Assembly (NCBI RefSeq): GCF_029243085.1
Contig: NZ_JAQWSS010000037.1
Coordinates: 1-44,467 of the forward strand
DNA length: 44,467 nucleotides
Direction of reading: 5' to 3'
Source of the DNA: Candidatus Thioglobus sp.
GTDB lineage: Bacteria; Pseudomonadota; Gammaproteobacteria; PS1; Pseudothioglobaceae
Shown: positions 19,037 to 22,746 of the stretch, in pieces
Layout of the letters: each line of letters opens with the position of its first letter
Numbering within the stretch: position 1 is the stretch's first letter
Position numbers and translations under genes: made by a program
The notes under the pieces: model-generated
Told to the model about the DNA's origin: nothing
The model's database searches: none
Seen by the model: only the letters and a program-made list of their open reading frames with translations

Positions 19037-19951
19037 CTAGTCAAGCGCAGACAACCACTGATTAATTGTCAACACTAAATCGTTAGCTGTATCTCCTTCT
19101 TTATAATAATGATCGGCATTGGCAATAACCTTTTGATCACTTTGATTATTATTGGCAAGACTCATTAGCCATTTTCGCTCTTCTGCTGAACGTTTTACGC
19201 CTGAAAAATCTTTCTCACCATAAACATCTAGTACGGGTTTGAGCATAATATCAAGTGGCATACGTTTAATAACCTTTTGCTTGTAATCTGTAGCACCCAT
19301 ACCGATACCAACATAGGCTTTAATTTTATCATCGCCATATTTATCAAAATAACTCATAGCCATATGCGCACCACAACCGTGCGCAATTAGAATGACATTG
19401 TCAATACCTCGTTGCTCGTAAAATTCAATAGCCGCATCAATACGCTCATGCGCATACGGGAAAATTGGGACATAATCATAATAAGTTGCTTGTTTGTCGA
19501 GCACTGGCATTTGTACAGATAAGCTATGCCAGCCTTTGTCCGCCAACCCAATACGGAGTGGCTTAATAGTACTCTCCCAATTAGCGTGATATCCACGTGA
19601 ATGTAGGACAATCACGCCGCCTTTAGGATTTTCCACATCAGCTTCCATATAAATACTAAACACCTCTTTATCATTAGACAAAGGTAAGTATTCAACATCC
19701 CCATCCATGACCGCTTCTTCAATTTCACCAATCATACGAACTTCACGTGCGTAATCAGGCTTAACTTCCGTAAATTGATTGTAGAGTTTTTGCAATGAAG
19801 TCGTATCAAATCCTTCTAATTTAGGCAATTCAGGAAATTTTGGCAATTGAGAAAAATCAGGAAAACTTGAAAGTTTATCTATGGATGGCAAAAAGGCTGA
19901 GACATTCATTGAAAAACTCAGTACTGATATAATAATAATTTTATTCCACAT
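19037..19951 (-). CDS. Exported DUF3530-like alpha/beta-hydrolase-fold protein
   Basis: A 304-residue protein with an N-terminal signal sequence (IIIISVLSFSMNVSA, cleavage near residue 19), so probably periplasmic. It has an alpha/beta-hydrolase fold resembling DUF3530. GVIVLHSRGYHANWE forms the first strand and oxyanion region, and VYGEKD and NADHYY supply the expected Asp and His. The nucleophile elbow reads AHGCGAH, with Gly where a catalytic Ser should be, so ordinary esterase activity is doubtful. It overlaps the Sel1 gene by 11 bases and is the last gene of the exported-protein run. Confidence 0.7.
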   Translation of the reverse strand: MWNKIIIISVLSFSMNVSAFLPSIDKLSSFPDFSQLPKFPELPKLEGFDTTSLQKLYNQFTEVKPDYAREVRMIGEIEEAVMDGDVEYLPLSNDKEVFSIYMEADVENPKGGVIVLHSRGYHANWESTIKPLRIGLADKGWHSLSVQMPVLDKQATYYDYVPIFPYAHERIDAAIEFYEQRGIDNVILIAHGCGAHMAMSYFDKYGDDKIKAYVGIGMGATDYKQKVIKRMPLDIMLKPVLDVYGEKDFSGVKRSAEERKWLMSLANNNQSDQKVIANADHYYKEGDTANDLVLTINQWLSALD

Positions 19952-20486
19952 ATTTTTTATTGAGTTGCTCCAACGCTACTTTAGCATCTGGATGGTTATT
20001 TTGAGTTGCACGATTAAACCAATAATAAGCTTGTTTGATATCACCCTTTTCCAGCATTAACGAGGCTAGATTGTACTGAGCATATTCGTCTTCCTGCTTG
20101 GCAGCTATTAGCCACCATTCTTCTGCTAATTTAATATTTTTCTCTACGCCTTTGCCATCATAATAGAGCATGGCTAATTCACTTTGAGCATACGATAAGC
20201 CTTGTTTAGCTGATTTTTCAAACCACTCAAAGGCTTTTCGCTCATTTTTTTCTGCGCCTAAACCGTGTAGATAGCTTAAGCCAATATTATTTTGCGCAGC
20301 ACTATGTCCGCCGTCAGCGGCACGCATCATCCAATTAAACGCATCGTCATTACGACCTGCTTGTGAATAATCGTAGCCAATTTGATACCAACGATCAAAT
20401 CTTGTTTCAGCTAGCGCGAAAGAAGTTGTTAAAACATAAAAAAGGGACGCCATAAGCATCCCTTTTTTTAAAACAATGGTTAACAA
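19941..20486 (-). CDS. Exported Sel1-repeat protein
   Basis: A protein of up to 181 residues with tandem Sel1-like (TPR-type) repeats, such as AQNNIGLSYLHGLGAEKN and AQSELAMLYYDGKGVEKN, followed by a shorter repeat. Such repeats mediate protein-protein contacts. A signal peptide ends near SFALAE, so it should be exported. The start is uncertain. TTG at 20486 gives a basic n-region (LKKG) before the hydrophobic core. ATGs at 20459 and 20453 are alternatives, and AAAAAGGG is well spaced for the latter. It begins two bases after the rhodanese stop and overlaps the DUF3530-like gene. Confidence 0.8.
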   Translation of the reverse strand: MLTIVLKKGMLMASLFYVLTTSFALAETRFDRWYQIGYDYSQAGRNDDAFNWMMRAADGGHSAAQNNIGLSYLHGLGAEKNERKAFEWFEKSAKQGLSYAQSELAMLYYDGKGVEKNIKLAEEWWLIAAKQEDEYAQYNLASLMLEKGDIKQAYYWFNRATQNNHPDAKVALEQLNKKYVE

Positions 20487-20487
20487 G

Positions 20488-21177
20488 TTACTTAACTGTT
20501 AGACCCAAAAGTTTCCAATCGTTCATACCACCACGGTAGTATTTGATTTTACTTTGTGGGTAACCCATCGTTAATAGTGCACGTATAGCCGCAGGCGACT
20601 GTCCACACCATGAACCATTACAGTACAAGTATAACGTCTTAGCATTGTCGTAGTTTAATACGCCATCCATATCTACAACGCCAAACTTATCCGTTAGGAT
20701 TTCTACAACAGCCATAGGATCTTTAGCTAACGCCTTAGAGTTAAGCTTAGTAAATGGTACATTTACTGCATGTGGAATCATGCCTTTTTTAGCCCAACCC
20801 TTTGTACGTGCATCAATCACTAACTGTGTTGTGTCACCACCTGCAATATCACGCGCAGCGTGAATTACATCTAGCTCAGTTACTGTTTCAACCGCTGCAG
20901 GCGCGAACGGTGCAGTTGGTTGAATACAGAACGGCGGACAAGGACGTGAAGTCTTTGCAAATGCCGGATCTACCATATTGCCATTGTCAGCATTACGAGA
21001 GATACCTGCAATTTCCAAAGTACCCTTAACGATACCAACTGGTTTTCCAGCTTTTTTTACAGTCTTAGCTGCAGAAGAGCCGTTATTCCAGTTATGGTCA
21101 GCGCCTAAAAAGTCTGCTGATTGAGCTGAAAAAGCCAATGTTGAAATTACAGCTGCTGCTAATAATTTAATTTTCAT
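20488..21177 (-). CDS. Exported rhodanese-domain protein, copy A
   Basis: A 229-residue protein with a clear signal peptide (MKIKLLAAAVISTLAFSAQSA). It has an N-terminal extension containing the cysteine pair SRPCPPFCIQP and one rhodanese domain. The active-site loop is YCNGSWCGQSP; its first Cys is in the persulfide-carrying position, and a second Cys lies within the loop. Rhodaneses move sulfane sulfur between thiols, so a periplasmic sulfur-handling role is plausible but unproven. It is a close paralogue of the next gene upstream, from which a hairpin separates it. AGGAG precedes the ATG. It has about 16 more residues than copy B after the signal peptide. Confidence 0.88.
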   Translation of the reverse strand: MKIKLLAAAVISTLAFSAQSADFLGADHNWNNGSSAAKTVKKAGKPVGIVKGTLEIAGISRNADNGNMVDPAFAKTSRPCPPFCIQPTAPFAPAAVETVTELDVIHAARDIAGGDTTQLVIDARTKGWAKKGMIPHAVNVPFTKLNSKALAKDPMAVVEILTDKFGVVDMDGVLNYDNAKTLYLYCNGSWCGQSPAAIRALLTMGYPQSKIKYYRGGMNDWKLLGLTVK

Positions 21178-21194
21178 ATTAATCTCCTAGATTA

Positions 21195-21219
21195 AAAAGC
21201 ACTCGTGTAGAGTGCTTTT
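21195..21219 (-). terminator. Hairpin between the two rhodanese genes
   Basis: AAAAGCACTC and GAGTGCTTTT form a perfect 10-bp stem with a 5-base loop and a following T-rich tract on the minus strand. It lies 10 bases past the copy B stop and 18 bases before the copy A start. It may be a partial terminator or an mRNA-stabilising hairpin that sets a higher level for copy B. Confidence 0.7.
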
Positions 21220-21228
21220 ATGAATCAA

Positions 21229-21870
21229 TTACTTAGTAGTTAAACCTAAAGACTTCCAAGAATTCATACCACCACGGTAGTATTTAATCTTGTTCTCAGG
21301 GTAACCCATAGTTAATAATGCTCTAATTGAAGCTGGAGACTGACCACACCATGAACCATTACAGAACAAGTATAAAGTCTTGGCATTGTCGTAGTTTAAT
21401 ACGCCGTCCATATCCTTTACGCCAAATGTATCAGTCATAATTTCTACAACTGCCATAGGGTCTTTGGCTAACGCCTTAGAATTAAGCTTTGTAAATGGAA
21501 CGTTTACTGCGTGTGGGATTGTACCTTTCTTAACCCAACCTGGTGTACGTGCATCAACAACCAATACTGAAGTGTCGCCACCAGCAGAATCACGTGCTGC
21601 ATGAATTACGTCTAGTTCAGTTACTGTTTCAACTGCTGCAGGCGCGAACGGTGCAGTAGGCTGAATACAGAACGGCGGACAAGGACGTGAAGTCTTTGCA
21701 AACGCTGGATCGATTGTTGCTTTATTATCTTGGTTACGTGAAATACCCGCAACTTCCATAACGCCTTTAACGATACCAACTGCTTTGCCTGTTACTTTTT
21801 CTGCAAAAACTGGTGTTACTGATAATGCTGCCGCAACAGCTGTACTTACTACTAATGTTTGAAGTTTCAT
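21229..21870 (-). CDS. Exported rhodanese-domain protein, copy B
   Basis: A 213-residue paralogue of copy A, with its own signal peptide (TLVVSTAVAAALSVTPVFA), the same RPCPPFCIQP segment and the same CNGSWCGQSP active loop. By hand count about 25 of the last 183 residues differ from copy A, roughly 86% identity. The block from PAFAKTSRPC to VIHAARD is identical. I start at the ATG at 21870, preceded by a purine-rich site (GAGGAGAG), rather than at the ORF-track start 12 codons earlier, because the signal peptide begins there. It is likely exported; its partner proteins are unknown. Confidence 0.88.
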   Translation of the reverse strand: MKLQTLVVSTAVAAALSVTPVFAEKVTGKAVGIVKGVMEVAGISRNQDNKATIDPAFAKTSRPCPPFCIQPTAPFAPAAVETVTELDVIHAARDSAGGDTSVLVVDARTPGWVKKGTIPHAVNVPFTKLNSKALAKDPMAVVEIMTDTFGVKDMDGVLNYDNAKTLYLFCNGSWCGQSPASIRALLTMGYPENKIKYYRGGMNSWKSLGLTTK

Positions 21871-21962
21871 ACTTCTCTCCTCTTTCTTATATAAAAAATT
21901 ACTCATTATGAGTTTGTTATTAACAACTTCTCCAACCGAGCAAGAAATTGTAAATTCTGTAA

Positions 21963-22193
21963 TTAATCGCAGCTAGGCTCTTCTTCTAAGTTGTGATTAG
22001 CGAAAAAATCCATGACACATTCTTCTTTTGCATCTTCTTCTGCGCCATCACAAAAATTTTGTGCGCCATCACGAATAACTTGCTTTTGAGCCTCTGTTGC
22101 ATCTGCAGCTAGTGGAGCTACTGTCTCACCATCCATGTGTGCAAATACTGTTGTTGTCATTAAAAATGCAAATAATACGGCTAATTTTTTCAC
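21963..22193 (-). CDS. Small exported Cys-containing acidic protein
   Basis: I do not recognise this 76-residue protein. It has a signal peptide (KKLAVLFAFLMTTTVFA) and a short acidic mature part with three cysteines: one in NFCDGAEED, one in KEECVMDFF and one at the penultimate residue. The start is GTG, with a strong AAAGGAGAT site. A good promoter lies just upstream, so it is the first gene of the exported-protein run that includes both rhodaneses. The mature domain, about 58 residues, is too small for an enzyme; a thiol carrier or binding role is only a guess. Confidence 0.75.
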   Translation of the reverse strand: MKKLAVLFAFLMTTTVFAHMDGETVAPLAADATEAQKQVIRDGAQNFCDGAEEDAKEECVMDFFANHNLEEEPSCD

Positions 22194-22225
22194 TTTATCT
22201 CCTTTGTAATAGGTTTAAAGTGCTA

Positions 22226-22253
22226 TTTATACCATGATGAGCCAAATTATCAA
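22226..22253 (-). promoter_or_regulatory. Sigma-70 promoter for the exported-protein gene run
   Basis: On the minus strand TTGATA and TATAAA are separated by 16 bases. They lie about 30 bases before the GTG of the small Cys protein. Both boxes match the consensus well, making this one of the better promoters in the window. Confidence 0.55.
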
Positions 22254-22311
22254 GTTATTTTCAATGTATCTGTATACCCTAATACTCTAATATCAATAAT
22301 GATTACTGTTT

Positions 22312-22746
22312 CTAATGTTTGTCCATGGCCAAATTAGCTAACTCATCTGCCATTTCATTCCCTTCATCACCACTATGACCTTTAACCCAATGCCAATGCA
22401 CATTGTGCCGTATGTTTAATACATCCAGTCGCTGCCATAAATCTACATTTTTAACCGGTTTTTTGGCAGCTGTTTTCCAACCTTTAGCTTTCCACCCCTT
22501 GATCCAATCATTGATACCATTCATCACATATTTTGAATCAGTAAATAAATCAATATCAATACTGCTAGATTTAATAGCCTCTAAGGCCTTAATGGCAGCC
22601 ATTAACTCCATGCGATTGTTGGTAGTCTCTTTTTCACTACCGTGAAGTTTTTTATCATGATCACCATAACGTAACCAAACACCCCAACCACCTATGCCAG
22701 GATTACCTCTACAACCGCCATCTGTATAGATAATAATTTTTTCCAT
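22312..22746 (-). CDS. rnhA: Ribonuclease HI
   Basis: RNase HI cuts the RNA strand of RNA-DNA hybrids, removing R-loops and primer remnants. The 144-residue protein has all the catalytic acids in their usual settings: [26 protein letters not shown] and a C-terminal NEMADELA. The basic protrusion ([18 protein letters not shown]) and the [11 protein letters not shown] loop are typical. It starts one base after the asnB-like stop, so it is probably co-transcribed with that gene. In many gammaproteobacteria rnhA is next to dnaQ, which is not here. Confidence 0.97.

Follow-up and report, generated by a model that had tools for sequence, protein, structure and literature searches.

What do five consecutive genes for exported proteins, two of them rhodaneses, do for a member of the Thioglobaceae? 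The question is raised by the minus strand between positions 19037 and 22193 of contig NZ_JAQWSS010000037.1 from Candidatus Thioglobus sp., a stretch of 44,467 nucleotides which is referred to as the window. Its genome (G000) belongs to the family Thioglobaceae (SUP05/Ca. Thioglobus relatives), and its named relatives comprise Ca. Thioglobus, Ruthturnera, Thiodubiliella and SUP05 genomes. A first-pass annotation of the window had described five exported proteins behind one good promoter and had proposed a periplasmic sulfur-handling unit. All five open reading frames are indeed present with signal-peptide-like N-termini, which were judged by eye from the sequence and not with a dedicated predictor, and two start codons were amended. 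Pfam matches above cut-off identify two rhodaneses (PF00581; RhdA and RhdB), a Sel1-repeat protein and a DUF3530 protein (Table 1); the remaining gene encodes a small protein with three cysteines (sm3Cys). With a probability of roughly 0.6, sm3Cys, RhdA and RhdB constitute a SoxL-type periplasmic sulfane-sulfur transfer module, which would serve the truncated, SoxCD-less Sox system of the Thioglobaceae. This reading is built on gene content, family membership, the sox linkage of relatives, co-occurrence, a shared N-terminal tag and covarying hairpins.

RhdA and RhdB belong to an exported four-cysteine rhodanese group characterized by the motifs SRPCPPFCIQP and CNGxWCGQSP. In an alignment of 47 sequences, the active-site residues Cys170 and Cys175 never vary, and Cys64 and Cys68, the CPPFC pair, are at least 90% conserved. 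A structure search matched the fold of RhdA to solved rhodaneses, and a sequence search against solved structures returned weak rhodanese matches. The active-site half shows weak similarity to PQQ_CXXCW rhodaneses (TIGR03865) and TsoB (NF045694), but scores far under the curated cut-offs of both. The group was found in 79 out of 340 sampled gammaproteobacteria. SoxB is encoded in 65 of these 79 genomes compared to 73 of the 261 genomes lacking the group (Fisher p 7e-18, kinship ignored). Moreover, some relatives are located within sox clusters, in the orders soxCDXYZA-SoxK-rhd-soxB (L056) and rhd-soxXYZA (L103) or adjoining soxB (L140), and in two loci a SAXB/SoxK domain is fused to the four-cysteine rhodanese directly 3' of soxX-soxA (L138:7735-8697 and L139:8959-9930). 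A role in Sox is favoured by these clusters and fusions as well as by the co-occurrence with SoxB.

The closest named relative is SoxL (Alvin_2171) of Allochromatium vinosum, which is encoded in the layout soxXAKL and has been proposed as a substitute for SoxCD (PMC3368242, PMC10892978). The statement of the first-pass annotation that no named pathway contains such a set was thus too pessimistic. Like SoxL, the window rhodaneses are periplasmic single-domain proteins of a SoxCD-less sulfur oxidiser, and some of their relatives follow soxK or are fused to SoxK. Unlike soxL, the window genes are sox-unlinked, tandem-duplicated and positioned behind a family-specific three-cysteine protein, and RhdB carries a SoxK-like tag. 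They are therefore termed SoxL-type rhodaneses here rather than SoxL. The genome of the window contains soxB, soxA and soxK and lacks soxC (SoxD was not searched for), and a soxC-less host is the setting in which SoxL has been proposed to replace SoxCD. Further, paralogous exported rhodaneses have CNGxWC and lack the CPPFC pair (L050:6575-7201 on G000:C114, and L052:5826-7294, where they occur in tandem). The paralogues of L050-L053 were dismissed as candidates for true SoxL, as the CPPFC pair is missing and no sox linkage is present in the stretches read.

SoxB is absent in 14 of the genomes harboring the group, which would fit Sox-independent thiosulfate sulfurtransferases that split thiosulfate directly, pass the sulfane to a thiol, perhaps that of sm3Cys, and leave sulfite for AprAB. 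Such an activity has been proposed for rhodaneses of Endoriftia (PMC7787665) and for a highly transcribed pair in a bathymodioline-related scallop ectosymbiont, in which two rhodanese-like genes take the second and third place in transcript level, above soxAX and soxYZ (PMC10999363). If these genes correspond to RhdA and RhdB, their high transcription would also fit the Sox reading. Direct splitting is nevertheless considered unlikely, since the sox clusters, the SoxK fusions and the SoxK tag on RhdB indicate Sox. In addition, sulfite set free in the periplasm would need passage across the membrane before AprAB could use it. Even less probable is a general role in envelope persulfide or thiol-redox maintenance rather than in energy metabolism. 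The SoxB-less genomes, the additional conserved cysteines of CPPFC and the three-cysteine partner would be compatible with it, but the association with SoxB is strong and the proteins are missing throughout a SoxB-less genus of the same family (g3).

A second line of evidence is provided by the N-terminus of RhdB. Directly after the signal peptide RhdB displays the sequence FLGxxHNWNNGSS, whereas the mature start of RhdA is plain. The same sequence follows the signal peptide of SoxK (SoxAX-binding protein, SAXB; NF052674) in the window genome and its relatives. SoxK is a small subunit without a rhodanese domain, and the likeness is confined to this N-terminal cassette. The equality of both tags likewise favours a role of RhdB in Sox. 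The tag is also found after the signal peptide of NapB (PF03892). A search of six genomes for the core pattern yielded 25 matches compared to 9 for a reversed control, and all matches near an N-terminus are SoxK, RhdB or NapB. In one genome (G002), similarity at the DNA level is recognisable over signal peptide and tag of all three genes and fades beyond the tag. In two loci (L031, L035) the tag of RhdB is framed by two cysteines. NapB of several Thioglobaceae (L194-L199, L164) carries the variant FFGxxHNWNN, in some cases followed by a long low-complexity linker, and in a single genome a periplasmic DsrE-family protein likewise bears the tag behind its signal peptide, with the start ADFLPSTHNWNDGSS (L187, G441:C259).

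In Thiodubiliella, the second rhodanese mostly possesses a lipobox (LTAC) instead of the tag; among the five genomes in which both proteins are readable, four also have SoxK as a lipoprotein. Over all RhdB/SoxK pairs, 16 genomes, outside Thiodubiliella, are tag/tag, four lipo/lipo and one is mixed (Fisher p 0.0008, kinship ignored), so that the N-terminal module of RhdB agrees with that of SoxK from the same genome. The tag sequences themselves are more alike when RhdB and SoxK come from one genome than when they come from different genomes (permutation p 0.002); the clearest example is GDSMPSTHNWN in G428. We infer that location or docking would be set by the tag much as by a lipid. A bolder and rather tentative extension is that FLGxxHNWNNGSS represents a tag for docking or anchoring in the periplasm which has not been described before and can be exchanged for lipidation. 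It could bring SoxK, the SoxL-type RhdB, NapB and one or more DsrE-like proteins to a common site, at which the oxidation of thiosulfate, the transfer of sulfane and the reduction of nitrate would be assembled together in SUP05.

The third component, sm3Cys, matched no Pfam or NCBIfam family, and a fold search with its model gave no match. Its residues Cys48, Cys59 and Cys75 are invariant in 17 sequences. Outside the family, sm3Cys was found in none of 369 sampled gammaproteobacteria. Within the family, sm3Cys and a window-type rhodanese co-occur in about 35 genomes (hand count), the exceptions being cases in which a copy is broken or a gene lies at the end of a contig. In genus g3 (about 30 genomes) SoxB, rhodanese and sm3Cys are all absent, and in locus L041 sm3Cys and RhdA are adjacent in a different neighbourhood, which lacks Sel1 and DUF3530. 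This joint occurrence, the shared absence with SoxB and the isolated pair add to the case for Sox. The co-occurrence, together with the linkage in L041, which lies outside shared synteny, supports the earlier idea of a small cysteine protein as partner, and sm3Cys is likely a thiol partner of the rhodaneses. One vesicomyid-type locus (L059) contains a broken RhdA beside an intact sm3Cys and another (L049) remnants of the unit only. A degraded second copy, sm3Cys with two rhodanese-like remnants, is situated on a separate contig of one Thiodubiliella genome (L280, G429:C16:11500-14000).

The order of the five genes recurs in nearly every Thioglobaceae locus and is hence not limited to one strain, although four loci possess a single rhodanese (L026, L029, L036, L040). 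However, the flanks are equally syntenic, both leuC-asnB-rnhA and, at the opposite end, DUF455-rluE-coq10-smpB, so that gene order alone was rejected as proof of joint function. Of the proposal that all five proteins act together, the part on the core of sm3Cys, RhdA and RhdB is supported, whereas the case for Sel1 and DUF3530 consists of synteny and an overlap of their genes, and both are set apart from the rhodaneses by a conserved terminator-like hairpin. The chances are about even that Sel1 and DUF3530 happen to adjoin the module and do not belong to it. A covarying terminator-like hairpin ahead of Sel1, the synteny of the entire neighbourhood from leuC-asnB-rnhA to smpB and the arrangement in L041 point to bystanders; against this, both genes follow the rhodanese or rhodaneses in every sufficiently long syntenic locus of the family, decayed clam-symbiont loci excepted, and the hairpin leaves no space for a separate promoter.

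In three loci (L028, L030, L032) the cores of RhdA and RhdB form a joint cluster (100/95) and have residues such as CINAT and NFCNGAWC in common, while their N-termini remain of the A- and B-type. This is most simply read as gene conversion of the core.

Several observations weigh against assigning the module to Sox. No sox genes adjoin the unit in the sequence examined, and at the sox locus of the same genome soxA is followed by soxK and an unrelated gene and not by a rhodanese. The tree places the window loci in a clade of their own, which does not group specifically with the soxXAK-linked members. At class level, the rhodanese is present in 56 of 111 SoxC-less and in 9 of 27 SoxC-bearing genomes, an excess that is not significant (p 0.13). 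The presence of the tag on NapB means that it is not Sox-specific, and the swap between tag and lipobox is known from one clade. Finally, the small genomes of the vesicomyid-type genus g2 have kept SoxB, SoxA and SoxK and have mostly lost or broken rhodanese and sm3Cys. As these clam-type symbionts keep Sox without the module, it is dispensable and accessory to Sox.

Taken with these restrictions, the SoxL-type module could operate as follows. Thiosulfate would be loaded onto SoxY by SoxXA(K) and sulfate released by SoxB. The sulfane sulfur left on SoxY would pass to the catalytic cysteine, Cys170 of RhdA or its equivalent in RhdB, within CNGSWCGQSP, and Cys175 or the CPPFC pair possibly assists the uptake. 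From the rhodanese the sulfur might be stored as sulfur or delivered to the cytosol, with sm3Cys as a possible acceptor or thiol partner. RhdB would be kept close to SoxXAK by its SoxK-type N-terminus, or by lipidation in Thiodubiliella, and RhdA would represent the untethered copy. Substrates, direction of sulfur flow and the binding target of the tag are the parts of this scheme that we infer. Clearance of sulfane from SoxY by SoxCD-less Sox systems is in general still mainly a proposal, which is based on SoxL. The scheme resembles the cytoplasmic Rhd-TusA-DsrE2 relay, in which persulfide is handed between a rhodanese and small thiol carriers, but that relay involves other proteins, whereas the window proteins are exported and have no TusA or DsrE2 partner nearby.

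Table 1. Features of the rhodanese locus, listed in 5' to 3' direction of the minus strand (window coordinates).
Feature	Position	Strand	Basis
Promoter-like element TTGATA-16-TATAAA, extended -10 TGGTATAAA	22226..22253	-	sequence
sm3Cys, exported acidic 76-aa protein, GTG start, three invariant Cys	21963..22193	-	ORF, alignment
Weak hairpin ACTCA-TAA-TGAGT followed by AATTTTTT, upstream of RhdA	21893..21913	-	folding
RhdA, exported SoxL-type four-Cys rhodanese, 213 aa, without tag	21229..21870	-	Pfam, alignment, structure search
Terminator-like hairpin AAAAGCACTC-TACAC-GAGTGCTTTT + T, RhdA/RhdB spacer	21194..21219	-	folding, covariation
RhdB, second SoxL-type rhodanese, 229 aa	20488..21177	-	ORF, Pfam, alignment
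N-terminal tag of RhdB DFLGADHNWNNGSS, common to SoxK and NapB	21073..21114	-	sequence comparison
Terminator-like hairpin AAAAAAGGGATGCT-TAT-GGCGTCCCTTTTTT across Sel1 start region	20438..20468	-	folding, covariation
Exported Sel1-repeat protein, start uncertain	19941..20453	-	Pfam Sel1, 1.5e-25
Exported DUF3530 alpha/beta-hydrolase-like protein	19037..19951	-	Pfam DUF3530, 9e-23

The five genes have been described as lying behind one promoter. The promoter element itself is supported, as the extended -10 (TGGTATAA) recurs 5' of sm3Cys in most relatives, together with an AT-rich block upstream. A general promoter scan found sites no commoner than in shuffled sequence and did not pick up the element. 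The AT-rich block (ATTAGAATATTATGATATTTAGATAG in the form of the relatives) is kept upstream of the promoter (22254-22312) and is weaker in the window; it is a possible regulator site. Downstream, however, the unit is interrupted by two covarying terminator-like hairpins. No Rfam match was found anywhere in the region.

The hairpin between RhdA and RhdB (-12.3 kcal/mol, z -7.6 in the window) ends in a U-tract and, in 16 genomes, has 98.1% of its cells paired, with two-sided changes at 8 of 10 pairs. The hairpin ahead of Sel1 (-18.5 kcal/mol, z -6.3) was compared over 22 sequences, with 97.7% of its cells paired and two-sided changes at three pairs, and follows RhdB or, in single-rhodanese genomes, the lone RhdA. 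The tandem rhodaneses of Thiodubiliella have no hairpin between them. The hairpin before RhdA was dismissed as a terminator (-3.4 kcal/mol, z -1.9 in the window alone). It contains an upstream ATG (21906); the start of RhdA was corrected to the ATG at 21870, which is preceded by the Shine-Dalgarno sequence AGAGGAG. For Sel1, the candidate starts are TTG 20486, ATG 20459 and ATG 20453, the last of which reads ATA in many relatives; in several of them this region contains no ATG at all. The gaps between the genes, called short or negative before, amount to 92, 51, about 28-34 and -11 nucleotides along the unit, so that the description does not suit all of them.

Of 53 short spacers between co-directional genes in family DNA, 15 contain a terminator-like hairpin, compared to 1 of 530 shuffled spacers, so that co-direction is no guarantee of a single operon in these genomes. 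Since a promoter and a ribosome-binding site would not both fit into the space behind each hairpin, the genes downstream most likely depend on read-through, which may be partial; protection of 3'-ends following processing is an alternative role of the hairpins. A single promoter would thus drive the whole set, and the internal hairpins would probably grade the output down to Sel1 and DUF3530, which are probably low-level read-through genes, as the hairpin ahead of them includes the Sel1 start region.

Literature searches yielded no account of this gene cluster from SUP05. Members of the SUP05/Thioglobaceae are major oxidisers of sulfide and thiosulfate in oxygen-minimum zones and in vent and seep animals. 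For this family a conserved candidate module is now available: its cysteines are defined, a small protein is the candidate partner, the tag predicts the position of RhdB, and the internal hairpins predict graded expression. The tag shared by RhdB and SoxK provides a concrete and cheaply testable hypothesis on the organisation of the periplasm, including the location of RhdB, and gives a vaguely defined sulfur-handling cluster a place, open to experiment, as an accessory to a known pathway.

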